Shown in pieces: positions 1,917-29,693 of a stretch of 33,799 nt of DNA (the first letter of the stretch is position 1; each line of letters opens with the position of its first letter). The notes below the pieces were generated by a model that saw only the letters and a list, made by a program, of their open reading frames with translations, was not told the origin of the DNA and did no database searches. This DNA comes from Candidatus Colwelliibacteriota bacterium. Lineage in GTDB: Bacteria; Patescibacteriota; Minisyncoccia; UBA6257; Colwellbacteraceae. The translations under genes and the position numbers were made by a program. The DNA is taken from the NCBI GenBank assembly GCA_016176505.1, contig JACOXB010000009.1, forward strand, positions 1-33,799, written 5' to 3'.

Positions 1917-2064
1917 GCCCAGCGGATTACTGTCGTAGGGAACATCCCGCAGGCCAAAGCCGGCTTGGTCTCCGACTCAAGTCGGAGCGGCTGGCCGAGG
2001 GGGAAGAAAGTTTTGCCGCTGGAGCAAAACTATTCTGGTTCCCATAGACAGCAAGCTGCTGGGC
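1917..2064. repeat. Structured repeat, copy A, upstream of pyrG
   Basis: Aligns along its length with the reverse complement of 5079-5250; ends form an inverted repeat (GCCCAGCGGATTACTGTC / GACAGCAAGCTGCTGGGC). Confidence 0.75.
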
Positions 2065-2089: not shown

Positions 2090-3700
2090 ATGAGGGATCC
2101 GAAGTATATTTTTGTGGTTGGCGGGGTAATGTCCGGAGTGGGCAAAGGAGTCGCCACCGCCAGCATCGGCCGGATCCTCAAAGCCCGCGGCTTTCGCGTC
2201 ACAAGCGTTAAAATTGATCCCTACGTAAACGTTGACGCCGGCACTATGAACCCCACCGAACACGGTGAGGTTTTTGTTTTGGATGACGGCACTGAATGCG
2301 ATCAGGACCTTGGTAATTACGAGCGCTTCTTGGATCGCGATTTAAGTAACGCCAATTATATGACCACCGGCAGTATTTACCTTTCGGTGATTAATCGTGA
2401 ACGGAGTTTGGGTTATGGCGGTGCTTGCGTTGAAGTTGTGCCCCACATTCCGCTTGAGGTGATTGCCCGAATCAATCGGGCGGTGAAACAAGACAAGGCG
2501 GAGATGGTGACAATCGAGATTGGCGGCACGGTTGGCGAATATCAAAACGTTTTGTTCCTTGAAGCCATCCGAATGCTGAAAATAAAACATCCAAAAGATG
2601 TATTACTTGTCCTTGTGAGCTATCTGCCGCTTCAGAATAAAGACAACGAATTAAAAACCAAACCGACTCAATATGCGGTTCGGACTCTTAACTCAGCCGG
2701 CCTCCAGCCTGACATTGTGATTGCTCGGGCGCCTTTAAGGCTTGATGGGAAAAGAAAAGCCAAGATTGCTTTTAACTGCGGCCTGGAAAAAGAGGACATT
2801 ATTTCCGCGCCTGACGTTTCAAGCATTTACGAAATTCCGGTTAATTTTGAAAAAGAAAAAATCAGCGAGCGGATCCTTCCAAAGTTCGGCTTGAAACCCC
2901 GAGCCAAAGATTTAGCGGATTTTCGGAGGCTGGTTACTCGAATCCGTGGTTCAAAAAAGCCGGTTAGAATCGGCATTGTTGGCAAGTACTTTGGAAGCGG
3001 CAGTTTTATGCTAGCCGATTCCTATATTTCCGTGATCGAAGCAATTAAGCATGCAGCTTATCACTTTAGGCGAGAGCCGGTGATCGAGTGGATTAATGCG
3101 GAAAAACTGGGCGATCTTAGTAAGTATCACGGCTTAATTGTGCCGGGCGGTTTTGGTAGTAGGGGCGTTGAGGGGAAAATTAAAGCCATCACTTATGCCC
3201 GGGAAAAGAAAGTGCCGTTTCTGGGGTTATGTTACGGCATGCAATTAGCGACAATTGAATACGCCCGTCATGTAGCGAAGCTCGCACGAGCCAACACCAC
3301 TGAAGTTAACTCGCGTACGCCCCATCCGGTAATTGATATTTTGCCTGAGCAAAAAGAAAAATTAGAAAAAGCTGATTATGGCGGCACTATGCGTCTCGGT
3401 GCTTGTCCGGCGATTCTTTCAAAAGGGACAATTGCTTACGGGGCTTACCAGGCGAACAAAATTTCCGAACGCCATCGCCACCGCTACGAAGTAAATCCAG
3501 AATATATTGCTAAGCTTGAAAAGAAAGGATTAATTTTCTCTGGCCGTTCACCCGATCACCGCCTGATGGAAATTATGGAACTGCCGCGGAAGATTCATCC
3601 CTTTTTTGTCGGCACCCAGTTCCATCCGGAATTGAAATCGCGACCCCTCTCGCCTCATCCACTTTTCCGAGAGTTTATCAAAGCAGCCATTAAAAAATAA
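2090..3700 (+). CDS. pyrG: CTP synthase
   Basis: MRDPKYIFVVGGVMSGVGKGVATASIGRILKARG...; C-terminal glutaminase domain with GLCYGMQ and HPE. Confidence 0.98.
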   Translation: MRDPKYIFVVGGVMSGVGKGVATASIGRILKARGFRVTSVKIDPYVNVDAGTMNPTEHGEVFVLDDGTECDQDLGNYERFLDRDLSNANYMTTGSIYLSVINRERSLGYGGACVEVVPHIPLEVIARINRAVKQDKAEMVTIEIGGTVGEYQNVLFLEAIRMLKIKHPKDVLLVLVSYLPLQNKDNELKTKPTQYAVRTLNSAGLQPDIVIARAPLRLDGKRKAKIAFNCGLEKEDIISAPDVSSIYEIPVNFEKEKISERILPKFGLKPRAKDLADFRRLVTRIRGSKKPVRIGIVGKYFGSGSFMLADSYISVIEAIKHAAYHFRREPVIEWINAEKLGDLSKYHGLIVPGGFGSRGVEGKIKAITYAREKKVPFLGLCYGMQLATIEYARHVAKLARANTTEVNSRTPHPVIDILPEQKEKLEKADYGGTMRLGACPAILSKGTIAYGAYQANKISERHRHRYEVNPEYIAKLEKKGLIFSGRSPDHRLMEIMELPRKIHPFFVGTQFHPELKSRPLSPHPLFREFIKAAIKK

Positions 3701-3701
3701 C

Positions 3702-3741
3702 CTACTAAAGCTTTTCTGCGATCGCAGAAAAGCTTTAGTAG
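3702..3741. repeat. Perfect 40-bp palindrome 1
   Basis: CTACTAAAGCTTTTCTGCGA|TCGCAGAAAAGCTTTAGTAG. Confidence 0.97.
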
Positions 3742-3781
3742 AATGAAAATCGCTCCGAAAATTTTCGGAGCGATTTTCATT
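3742..3781. repeat. Perfect 40-bp palindrome 2
   Basis: AATGAAAATCGCTCCGAAAA|TTTTCGGAGCGATTTTCATT; abuts palindrome 1. Confidence 0.97.
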
Positions 3782-4252: not shown

Positions 4253-5077
4253 ATGATTATCCTGCTCTATGGCCTGGATTCCTATCGGCGCCTGAAAAAG
4301 TTAGCCGAGATTACCGAAGCCTATCGTTCTAAATACACCGGTCTTTCTCACGAGAGATTTGATTTGGCCGAAGAAGGGTCTTTCCCTAAATTTCTTGATT
4401 TTGTCACTAGTCGCTCGATGTTTGACCCGGTGAAATTAGTGGTGCTTGATAATATCATCGCAAGCGATGCGCCGAATGAGTTAAAAGAAATTTTAAAAAC
4501 CTACGCCGAAATAAAAGACACAACCGTTGTTGTTAATTCGGAGACGAAACCGCCGGTTAAGTTTAAATTTTTGTTTGAAGAGCCGGTTCAGGTCCAGGAA
4601 TTTCCAGCGCCGAAAGAAGAGGGCCTTGATAGCTTTATTAAAAAAACTGCGAGCGCTCACGAGCTAAAACTTGATGAGGCAACCGTGGCCCACTTGGCTG
4701 CTGCTTTTGGCAGCGATACTTGGGCTTTGGCGACCGAGATTGAGCGCTTGGCTTTGGCTTCGAATGGTGCCGGCACTCCAACTAAAACCAAAGATTTAAT
4801 TGAGAAGAAACCAACTCGGGAATATTATCCCTTAATTAATTCGGTTAAGTGGGGCCGGAGCCGCAAAGAAAGGCTAGTGGCTCTGGAACGGATTTTGTCC
4901 GAGCGGCGGGATGAGCCAGCCCGGGTTTTTAATACTTTAGCTTATCGCTTGAAAGATGAAAAAGAAGCCAAGCTTTTTGCTGACTATGACGTGGCGGTAA
5001 AGTCAGGCAAACTTGAATACGAAGAAATTCTCCTCGACCTCGCCCTTGGTCCAGATTACTTCGAGTTAGGATTTTAG
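4253..5077 (+). CDS. holA: DNA polymerase III delta subunit
   Basis: MIILLYGLDSYRRLKKLAEI...; delta-like N-terminus and C-terminal helical region; convergent with rpsT. Confidence 0.85.
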   Translation: MIILLYGLDSYRRLKKLAEITEAYRSKYTGLSHERFDLAEEGSFPKFLDFVTSRSMFDPVKLVVLDNIIASDAPNELKEILKTYAEIKDTTVVVNSETKPPVKFKFLFEEPVQVQEFPAPKEEGLDSFIKKTASAHELKLDEATVAHLAAAFGSDTWALATEIERLALASNGAGTPTKTKDLIEKKPTREYYPLINSVKWGRSRKERLVALERILSERRDEPARVFNTLAYRLKDEKEAKLFADYDVAVKSGKLEYEEILLDLALGPDYFELGF

Positions 5078-5078
5078 G

Positions 5079-5250
5079 GCGCCCGCCAACTTATTGCCTA
5101 TCGGGACCAGAATAATCCGGCTCCAGCGGCCGGATTTTCTTCTCCCTCGGCCTGCTCGCTCCGACTTAAGTCGGACACCAAGCCGAGCTAGGCCTGCGGG
5201 ATGTCCCGTACGGCAGCAAGTTAGTGTAGGCAGTAAGTTGGTGGGCGTCG
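5079..5250. repeat. Structured repeat, copy B, between holA and rpsT
   Basis: Near-terminal inverted repeat cgcccgccaacttattgcc / ggcagtaagttggtgggcg; reverse complement aligns with copy A (1917-2064). Confidence 0.75.
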
Positions 5251-5251
5251 C

Positions 5252-5512
5252 CTAGCTCCTAGCTCCTAATCTCGCGGCTTTGGCTTTCAAGCGACTGGCT
5301 TTGTTTTTGGCAATCGCGCCGGTTTTCGCCGCCTTATCCAAAGCTTTATAAACCAAACTTAATTTTTGAGAAGCTACTTCGGCGCTTCCCTCACCAAGGA
5401 CCGTTTTATATTCTTTGGTCGTGGTCCTAATTTGTTTTTTCCGCGCCAGATTTCGCGCTCGGTTGGTTATATTTTGGCGCAAAGCCTTTTTAGCTGATTT
5501 AGTGTTTGGCAT
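5252..5512 (-). CDS. rpsT: 30S ribosomal protein S20
   Basis: MPNTKSAKKALRQNITNRARNLARKKQIRT...; start moved to the MPNTKSAKK methionine. Confidence 0.93.
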   Translation of the reverse strand: MPNTKSAKKALRQNITNRARNLARKKQIRTTTKEYKTVLGEGSAEVASQKLSLVYKALDKAAKTGAIAKNKASRLKAKAARLGARS

Positions 5513-5555
5513 AGACTTGGATATTTTCTCTAATAATCTCGAATAACGCAAGTAT

Positions 5556-28376: not shown

Positions 28377-29693
28377 ATGGATCTTAAGGCGCTAGTTCAA
28401 ACGGTTAATCAGATCGCTGAAGAAAAAGGCATCGAGTCCGGCAAGGTTTTCGAGGCGATCGAGGATGCCTTAGCCGCTGCTTACCGGAAAGAATCGGGCC
28501 AGCGCGGTTTAGTGGTTCGAGCAAAGCTTGATCCCAAAACCGGTGAAGCCGAATTTTCCCAGGTTAAAGAAGTGGTTGATGAAAACTCGGTTCGATTTAT
28601 TGACGAAGAAACGGAGGTCGAAGATGCTGAGCAAGGCCGAAGCGCCGAAGGCACCGAGCCGAGTCGAAGTGTCGAAGATACTCCGTCATCCGAGACCGAG
28701 GAAGAAAAACTGCCTCGCTATAATGCTGATCGCCATCTTTTAATTGAAGAAGCGAAAAAGATTAAAGCCGACGCTAAAGTAGGCGATGAATTAACTTTTT
28801 CTTTAACCCAAGAGAATGACTTTGGCCGGATTGCCGCCCAAACGGCAAAACAGGTTATTCTCCAGCGTTTGCGTGAAGCTGAGCGGGATTCGATTATGAC
28901 CGAGTTTAAAGATAAAGAAGGAACGGTGGTGAGCGGCATTGTTCAGCGTTTCGAGCGAGGCAATGTTTATATTGATTTGGGCCGGACTAACGGCATTATG
29001 TTTGCTAATGAATCAATCCCGGGCGAGCACTATCGCATTGGCGAAAGACTCCGCTTTTACGTTCTCGCGGTCCAATCAGAAACTAAAATCCCGGGTATTA
29101 TTCTTTCCCGGGCCCATCCTCGATTTGTGGCTAAGCTTTTTGAGATGGAAATTCCAGAGATGGCTGAGAATATTGTTGAGATCAAAGCTATCGCCCGGGA
29201 GTCAGGTTCACGAACCAAAGTGGCGGTTCATTCGAATTTGCCGGAGATTGATCCAGTTGGTTCTTGCGTGGGCCAACGAGGCACGAGAATCATGGCGATT
29301 TCGAATGAGCTGGGCCAGGAAAAATTAGATGTGGTGCCTTGGTCAGAAAAACCCGAAGAATTTATTGCGAATTCTCTAAGCCCAGCCAAAATCCGCCAGG
29401 TTGAAATTACTGATAATCGGGAAGCCAGAGTGCTTGTGGCTGATGATCAATTAAGCTTAGCTATTGGCCGGGGCGGTCAGAATGTTCGTTTGGCCGCCAA
29501 GCTCACCGGTTGGAAAATCGATGTTCGGTCAGAAGTGCGACCAGAAGAAAAACTCGAAGAAGGGGTGGCCGAAGTCGAAGACGGTGAGCGTAGTCGAACC
29601 GTCGAAGATGCTGAGGGAACTCGAAGCACTCAAGCCGTTGAGGCCGAGGAAAAGCCTGTTTATCATAAAAGGGAACCAGAAGACGACGAATAA
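28377..29693 (+). CDS. nusA: Transcription termination/antitermination factor NusA
   Basis: EDALAAAYRKE, S1 domain, KH domains (DPVGSCVGQRGTRI; LSLAIGRGGQNVRLAAKLTGWKIDV). Confidence 0.96.
   Translation: MDLKALVQTVNQIAEEKGIESGKVFEAIEDALAAAYRKESGQRGLVVRAKLDPKTGEAEFSQVKEVVDENSVRFIDEETEVEDAEQGRSAEGTEPSRSVEDTPSSETEEEKLPRYNADRHLLIEEAKKIKADAKVGDELTFSLTQENDFGRIAAQTAKQVILQRLREAERDSIMTEFKDKEGTVVSGIVQRFERGNVYIDLGRTNGIMFANESIPGEHYRIGERLRFYVLAVQSETKIPGIILSRAHPRFVAKLFEMEIPEMAENIVEIKAIARESGSRTKVAVHSNLPEIDPVGSCVGQRGTRIMAISNELGQEKLDVVPWSEKPEEFIANSLSPAKIRQVEITDNREARVLVADDQLSLAIGRGGQNVRLAAKLTGWKIDVRSEVRPEEKLEEGVAEVEDGERSRTVEDAEGTRSTQAVEAEEKPVYHKREPEDDE

Follow-up and report, generated by a model that had tools for sequence, protein, structure and literature searches.

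The window analysed here, a stretch of 33,799 nucleotides, belongs to a 466 kb (0.47 Mb) genome that is 97% complete (G000), and it contains two copies of a structured intergenic element. Copy A lies on the plus strand at 1917-2064 (covariance model (CM) hit 1930-2051), its full extent through the closing helix P1 being given by alignment, folding and pairing of the P1 arms. It ends 25 nt upstream of pyrG, which is encoded on the same strand (CTP synthase; 2090-3700; Pfam CTP_synth_N and GATase). Copy B, on the minus strand at 5078-5251 (CM hit 5094-5216), occupies the entire stop-to-stop gap between a plus-strand gene (4253-5077) and rpsT (ribosomal protein S20; 5252-5551, minus strand; Pfam Ribosomal_S20p), whose stop codons lie at its two edges. 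The former gene has no Pfam match, and we tentatively call it holA-like from its position and from the pyrG-holA-rpsT order, which is conserved in several relatives. Immediately after the pyrG stop codon (3702-3781) there are two adjacent perfect palindromes, loopless and with 20-nt arms, which seem to be simple gene-end hairpins of the kind favoured by the element. Elsewhere in the window, one reading frame has repeats with a 27-nt period (GTCGAAG...) at two places, 28617-28677 and 29574-29634, inside it and at its end.

The initial annotation had described a two-copy element in which pairing rather than sequence is selected. Both copies are real, can be aligned over about 150 nt, and have folding energies far below those of shuffled sequences (z -6.2 for copy A and -7.7 for copy B). 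The stem change first described was also exact: the upper stem of hairpin P5 reads GTTTTGC/GCAAAAC in copy A and ATCCGGC/GCCGGAT in copy B (5115-5135, minus strand) around an identical loop, CGCTGGA, which amounts to four two-sided pair changes. The family is larger than two, as the host genome holds eight full copies plus one that is internally deleted (blastn), and nine CM hits.

Covariation among the copies points to a fold that consists of the closing helix P1, a helix P2, and a three-way junction carrying a P3-P4 arm and P5. P1 is variable and sometimes has tandem G.A pairs at its base; in copy A its arms, found by x-drop pairing, are GCCCAGCGGATTACTGTC (1917-1934) and GACAGCAAGCTGCTGGGC (2047-2064). 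P2 pairs GGGAAC (1938-1943) with GTTCCC (2038-2043), although C1943 may pair with G2003 instead, and P3 pairs CCC (1946-1948) with GGG (1999-2001), with CCC/GGG, CTC/GAG and CGC/GCG variants. Thus, the hairpin first drawn from GGGAACATCCC was wrong, as these strands have other partners, and the second hairpin proposed as shared, TCCGACTYAAGTCGGA, is only the variable tip of a longer arm. This P4 arm (1952-1996) comprises P4a, a conserved 7-nt bulge (GCTTGGT, or GCUUGGU if written as RNA; 1963-1969) and the tip P4b (1970-1987). The P5 hairpin (2005-2036) has a near-invariant loop (consensus CGCNGGA; 2017-2023) and a bulged A (A2032). Copy B additionally has a second, outer 5' arm at about 5233-5251.

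The structure was drawn by hand on a MAFFT sequence alignment of 21 diverse copies and has 42 pairs. In this alignment 92.4% of the cells are paired, and 34 of the 42 pairs show two-sided change. The two-sided changes occupy 163 cells, compared with 48 +/- 6 in shuffled alignments and at most 46 when the partners are slid, which excludes chance as their source. A further 111 copies extend two-sided change to 42 of 42 pairs (1704 versus 510 cells), in a CM-fitted alignment that is biased toward the structure. Since kinship among copies inflates such simple counts, we also applied a tree-aware test to 77 non-redundant copies (<88% identity), in which substitutions inferred on a tree from a sequence-only alignment were re-placed on that tree; this phylogeny-preserving null is a home-made simulation, with significance set at E <=0.05. 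It returned 34 significantly covarying column pairs, of which 30 are among the 42 pairs of the model. Three of the other four lie inside the bulge region of P4 and seem to be alignment artefacts. The remaining one, C14-G73 (CG in 42 copies, TA in 13, GC in 6), suggests that the final base of P2 reaches over the junction to a partner on the P3 side. Across about 170 copies, drawn from several dozen genomes, the earlier claim of selected pairing is strongly supported, the added copies still showing paired changes, and we regard it as near certain that the fold is under selection.

While the helices vary on both strands, about 15 unpaired residues are nearly constant. In the core numbering of copy L043 these include U16, G20, A22, U35 and G37 (bulge), G67 A68, A74, the loop residues C87 G88 C89 and G91 G92 A93, the bulged A102, and G107. 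The folding strand is plus for copy A and minus for copy B, because in the orientation of the initial annotation G.U exceeds A.C mismatches in every set (72:30 in P1/P2; 186:97 in P1 of all copies; 84:38 in the sequence-only alignment) and because GA occurs on both sides of the P1 base in 20 copies (tandem G.A) and TC on both sides in none. The excess of G.U over A.C fits RNA and folded single-stranded DNA alike.

The element is about 110-190 nt long, without coding capacity, and 18 of 163 copies fall in open reading frames of at least 100 amino acids. The covariance model, run as the initial annotation had suggested, found further copies in the host genome and placed the element in 30 of 61 relatives, with a maximum of 25 copies per genome; it detected none in half of the relatives, including whole genera. 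In a sample of 379 genomes from across the phylum at least 21 carry it, a lower bound because few candidates were scored per genome. When about 85,000 species were scanned for a 27-base motif, 34 stretches came back, all of them from metagenome-assembled genomes (MAGs); the lineages named among these are Colwell-, Lipton-, Wolfe-, Brenner-, Yanofsky- and Azambacteria or Patescibacteria, all of them Parcubacteria/Patescibacteria. There was no match to plasmids, phages or viral contigs. None of the 4227 Rfam families matched at the gathering score, nor over the element even at E 10 (two loci) or E 1 (six more loci). We found no description of the family in open-access journal articles on structured RNAs and repeats of CPR bacteria. 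Judged from these searches, its host range is probably restricted to the phylum, and it appears to have no catalogued relative and an architecture of its own.

Could the element be a non-coding RNA with a trans-acting or housekeeping role, working as regulator, aptamer or ribozyme, whose gene family merely became multi-copy and whose location is incidental? The unpaired residues that barely vary, around a tight three-way junction and in two loops, are what one would expect of a functional RNA, as is a folding strand fixed by the G.U bias. Copy numbers that range from 0 to 25 among relatives, with none detected in half of them, argue against it, as do the turnover of loci, the retention of internally deleted copies, and the copies that sit inside palindromes (all below). 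We consider this reading unlikely.

The history of the two loci in the window is instructive. In 19 relatives holA and rpsT still stand tail to tail with no element between them; of 20 genomes only G000 has the gap occupied, and copy B thus entered between the two stop codons. The two genes overlap in 13 of these 19 element-free relatives, and in three a simple hairpin lies between them. Upstream of pyrG, relative G004 alone shares a copy, which is unlike copy A in sequence and identical to it in fold; G000 and G004 belong to two genera, and paired changes are seen also at this position, which the two share. Gene conversion at the G004 site is possible, as that genome has several similar copies. 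The place of copy A, just ahead of pyrG on the same strand, together with the G004 copy, could suggest a riboswitch-like cis-regulatory leader of pyrG. This is largely refuted by the other 18 of the 19 relatives with pyrG, which have no such upstream copy, and by the remaining copies, which lie by unrelated genes in any orientation.

Across the family, the 3' end of P1 lies at most 20 nt from the stop codon of the neighbour in 50 of the 89 copies whose 3' neighbour is antisense, and a stop codon of a sense gene lies within 20 nt of the 5' end in 11 of 71. Copies face the same way as the upstream gene about as often as the opposite way (71 sense, 69 opposite). The abutment of antisense stop codons, the exact filling of the holA-rpsT gap by copy B and the simple hairpin there in some relatives would suit a 3'-end module, that is, a bidirectional terminator or mRNA-stabilising hairpin retained after stop codons. 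Yet the transcript of the antisense gene carries the complement, the strand disfavoured by the G.U test; there is no orientation preference; and copy A is upstream of pyrG. The initial annotation had also offered a plain terminator module, which needs neither a three-way junction nor conserved bulges and leaves both the junction and the conserved unpaired residues unexplained. A 3'-end module is thus very improbable, while the two other options then offered, a structured RNA and a MITE-like palindromic element, stand and are compatible with each other.

Near-identical copies occur at different places. Copies multiply and turn over within genomes, and it is likely that the element moves or at least that it is quickly acquired and lost again. 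Outside P1, 19 of 164 copies have an outer inverted repeat of 13-25 nt that is specific to the locus (0.6 expected from shuffled flank pairs), and in G038 and G046 near-identical units lie inside different outer palindromes. P1 itself was tested as a terminal inverted repeat: its arms are nearly always paired, and their sequence differs by locus and subfamily. That P1 is merely a palindrome of the host does not hold in general, since P1 is homologous among several copies of the host genome G000 and among copies of G004 and varies there by paired changes. Direct repeats scoring at least 9 flank 15 copies (6 expected), and those scoring at least 12 flank three (0.2 expected). Clear target-site duplications are found in few copies (L168, L064, L232 and L065), and none stood out at copies A and B; the initial annotation had proposed a check for such duplications.

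In one MAG, the copy at reverse-strand offset 1101 (L274) has a foreign palindrome inserted in its P5 loop, which suggests that insertion into hairpin loops is a general occurrence in these genomes. Pairs of copies stand back to back, with their 5' ends facing and about 35 nt apart, at G031:C2:47644-47924, G048:C4:68836-69100 and G046:C3:520963-521191. In G013 (L049, L052, L053, L054) the element lies inside a MITE-like unit with the ends TGTAAGAATC...GAAATTTTACA and 7-bp direct repeats (CTTTACA, CATTAGA, CGTTATA). We rejected these target-site duplications and terminal inverted repeats (L049, L052, L054) as the element's own because internally deleted forms retain the terminal repeats, and the unit is better read as another MITE that carries the element. 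Several copies in G008 (L055-L057) have another short repeat, ACCGTGCCCGCTCGCTCC...CCTTAGCACG, at their flanks.

Within genomes, the helices behave as exchangeable modules. In MAG C24_metabat.bin.189, P4 is near-identical across copies, P5 occurs in several paired versions, and P1 falls into several families, some with step-by-step paired changes; in G050, versions of P1, P4 and P5 are freely combined. Copies of one genome also exchange entire P5 hairpins and P1 arms as blocks, so that some of the stem changes reflect block replacement and not stepwise compensation. Unrelated replacement, which had been named as the alternative to covariation, is therefore partly real and fails as an account of the stem differences overall. 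We read the module pattern as exchange between copies combined with selection on pairing. Degraded copies are also present in the host genome. At G000:C9:7996-8089 (L093, about 2480-2610) an internally deleted copy, with the deletion between CCGAGG repeats, shares the outer stem GGGGAAGTTGTCCC/GGGATAATTTCCCC with a full copy 0.8 kb away, and at G000:C15:58831-58853 (L091) a relic P1 3' arm, GGCAGTAAGCTGACGGGCGCC, lies beside an unrelated long hairpin, upstream of a gene starting MRKRTVVLVILDGWG.

Our search for a mobiliser covered Y1 transposases and reverse transcriptases. Y1/RAYT is absent from the host genome and does not track the element among relatives (6 of 15 other element-bearing relatives have Y1, with four expected), and it was rejected as the mobiliser. 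Reverse transcriptase is likewise absent from the host genome and does not track the element. In L157 and L199 a copy lies immediately behind the gene of a DGR-type reverse transcriptase with Avd, and in L157 it overlaps the reading frame of that gene; with the element at these 2 of 22 reverse transcriptase loci and at none of the other 20, this candidate was rejected as well.

These results bear on whether the fold matters in DNA, as in a single-stranded hairpin element, REP/BIME-like or attC-like, that serves as substrate for an HUH or tyrosine recombinase. The hairpin-centred placement and the back-to-back pairs in some genomes would fit, and the asymmetry of the folding strand is equally expected for single-stranded DNA. 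However, Y1/RAYT is missing from the host genome and also from the copy-rich G004, G007, G008, G048 and G050; the core is far larger and more conserved than a REP; and the interior of P5 and P4 is conserved, unlike that of attC sites. We find this reading doubtful.

Among known repeats, the ERIC/IRU and YPAL sequences of enterobacteria are intergenic palindromic repeats of about 100-170 bp, dispersed, MITE-like and with structured transcripts (PMC2229807), and the element resembles them in being short, dispersed, structured and MITE-like. The predicted structure of ERIC is a single long stem-loop (PMC2267715), whereas the element has a three-way junction, strong pair covariation, variable ends and a phylum-wide spread in the CPR. 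Rickettsia palindromic elements (RPE; 105-146 bp) occupy reduced genomes, where they are intergenic and sometimes inside genes (PMC2229807). The element is likewise palindromic and, in reduced genomes, partly within reading frames; RPE have been characterised as long stem-loops that end in inverted repeats, no sequence relation between the two is apparent, and the docking of the element at antisense stop codons has no counterpart in the parts of the RPE descriptions consulted. In its way of working the element probably resembles the small palindromic mobile elements of the ERIC/RPE class (PMC2229807, PMC2267715). REP/BIME sequences with RAYT are also palindromic, intergenic, multi-copy and sometimes in inverted pairs; REPs measure 20-40 bp and bear at one end a tag, for example GTAG (PMC3733652), and the host genome of the element has no Y1 transposase. 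With structured RNA candidates in Rfam it shares a covarying multi-helix fold and conserved unpaired residues, but no family matches it. The element has no open reading frame and no association with a reverse transcriptase, and it is far too small for a group IIC intron. Group IIC introns are structured mobile RNAs that insert near terminator hairpins.

Taken together, we think the element probably represents a new family of MITE-like mobile elements, short, non-autonomous, dispersed and restricted to the phylum, with a selected RNA fold. Such an element would be mobilised in trans and would preferentially target gene 3' ends or the loops of hairpins that resemble terminators. The folded strand (RNA, or single-stranded DNA) would be the form recognised by a mobilising or host protein, and we propose that the fold is preserved because of this recognition; we infer that the folded strand is RNA and that the factor acts in trans. 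Gene conversion between copies would homogenise the core and swap whole P5 hairpins. A bolder version, to which we assign a low probability, is a phylum-wide mobile lineage defined by its RNA fold, which would recognise hairpins at gene 3' ends as targets and move by an undescribed mechanism, its conserved three-way-junction RNA itself taking part in transposition as guide, scaffold or ribozyme.

The genomes of these Parcubacteria are extremely reduced, yet many hold the element in as many as 25 copies, and over much of the phylum it has kept its fold but not its sequence. The family provides a ready covariance model and about 170 copies with gains and losses, and raises the question of which factor reads the fold. 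Transcription would place it among the few classes of structured RNA that are specific to CPR bacteria, and mobility would make it a natural record of small elements targeting gene ends and hairpins in compact genomes.
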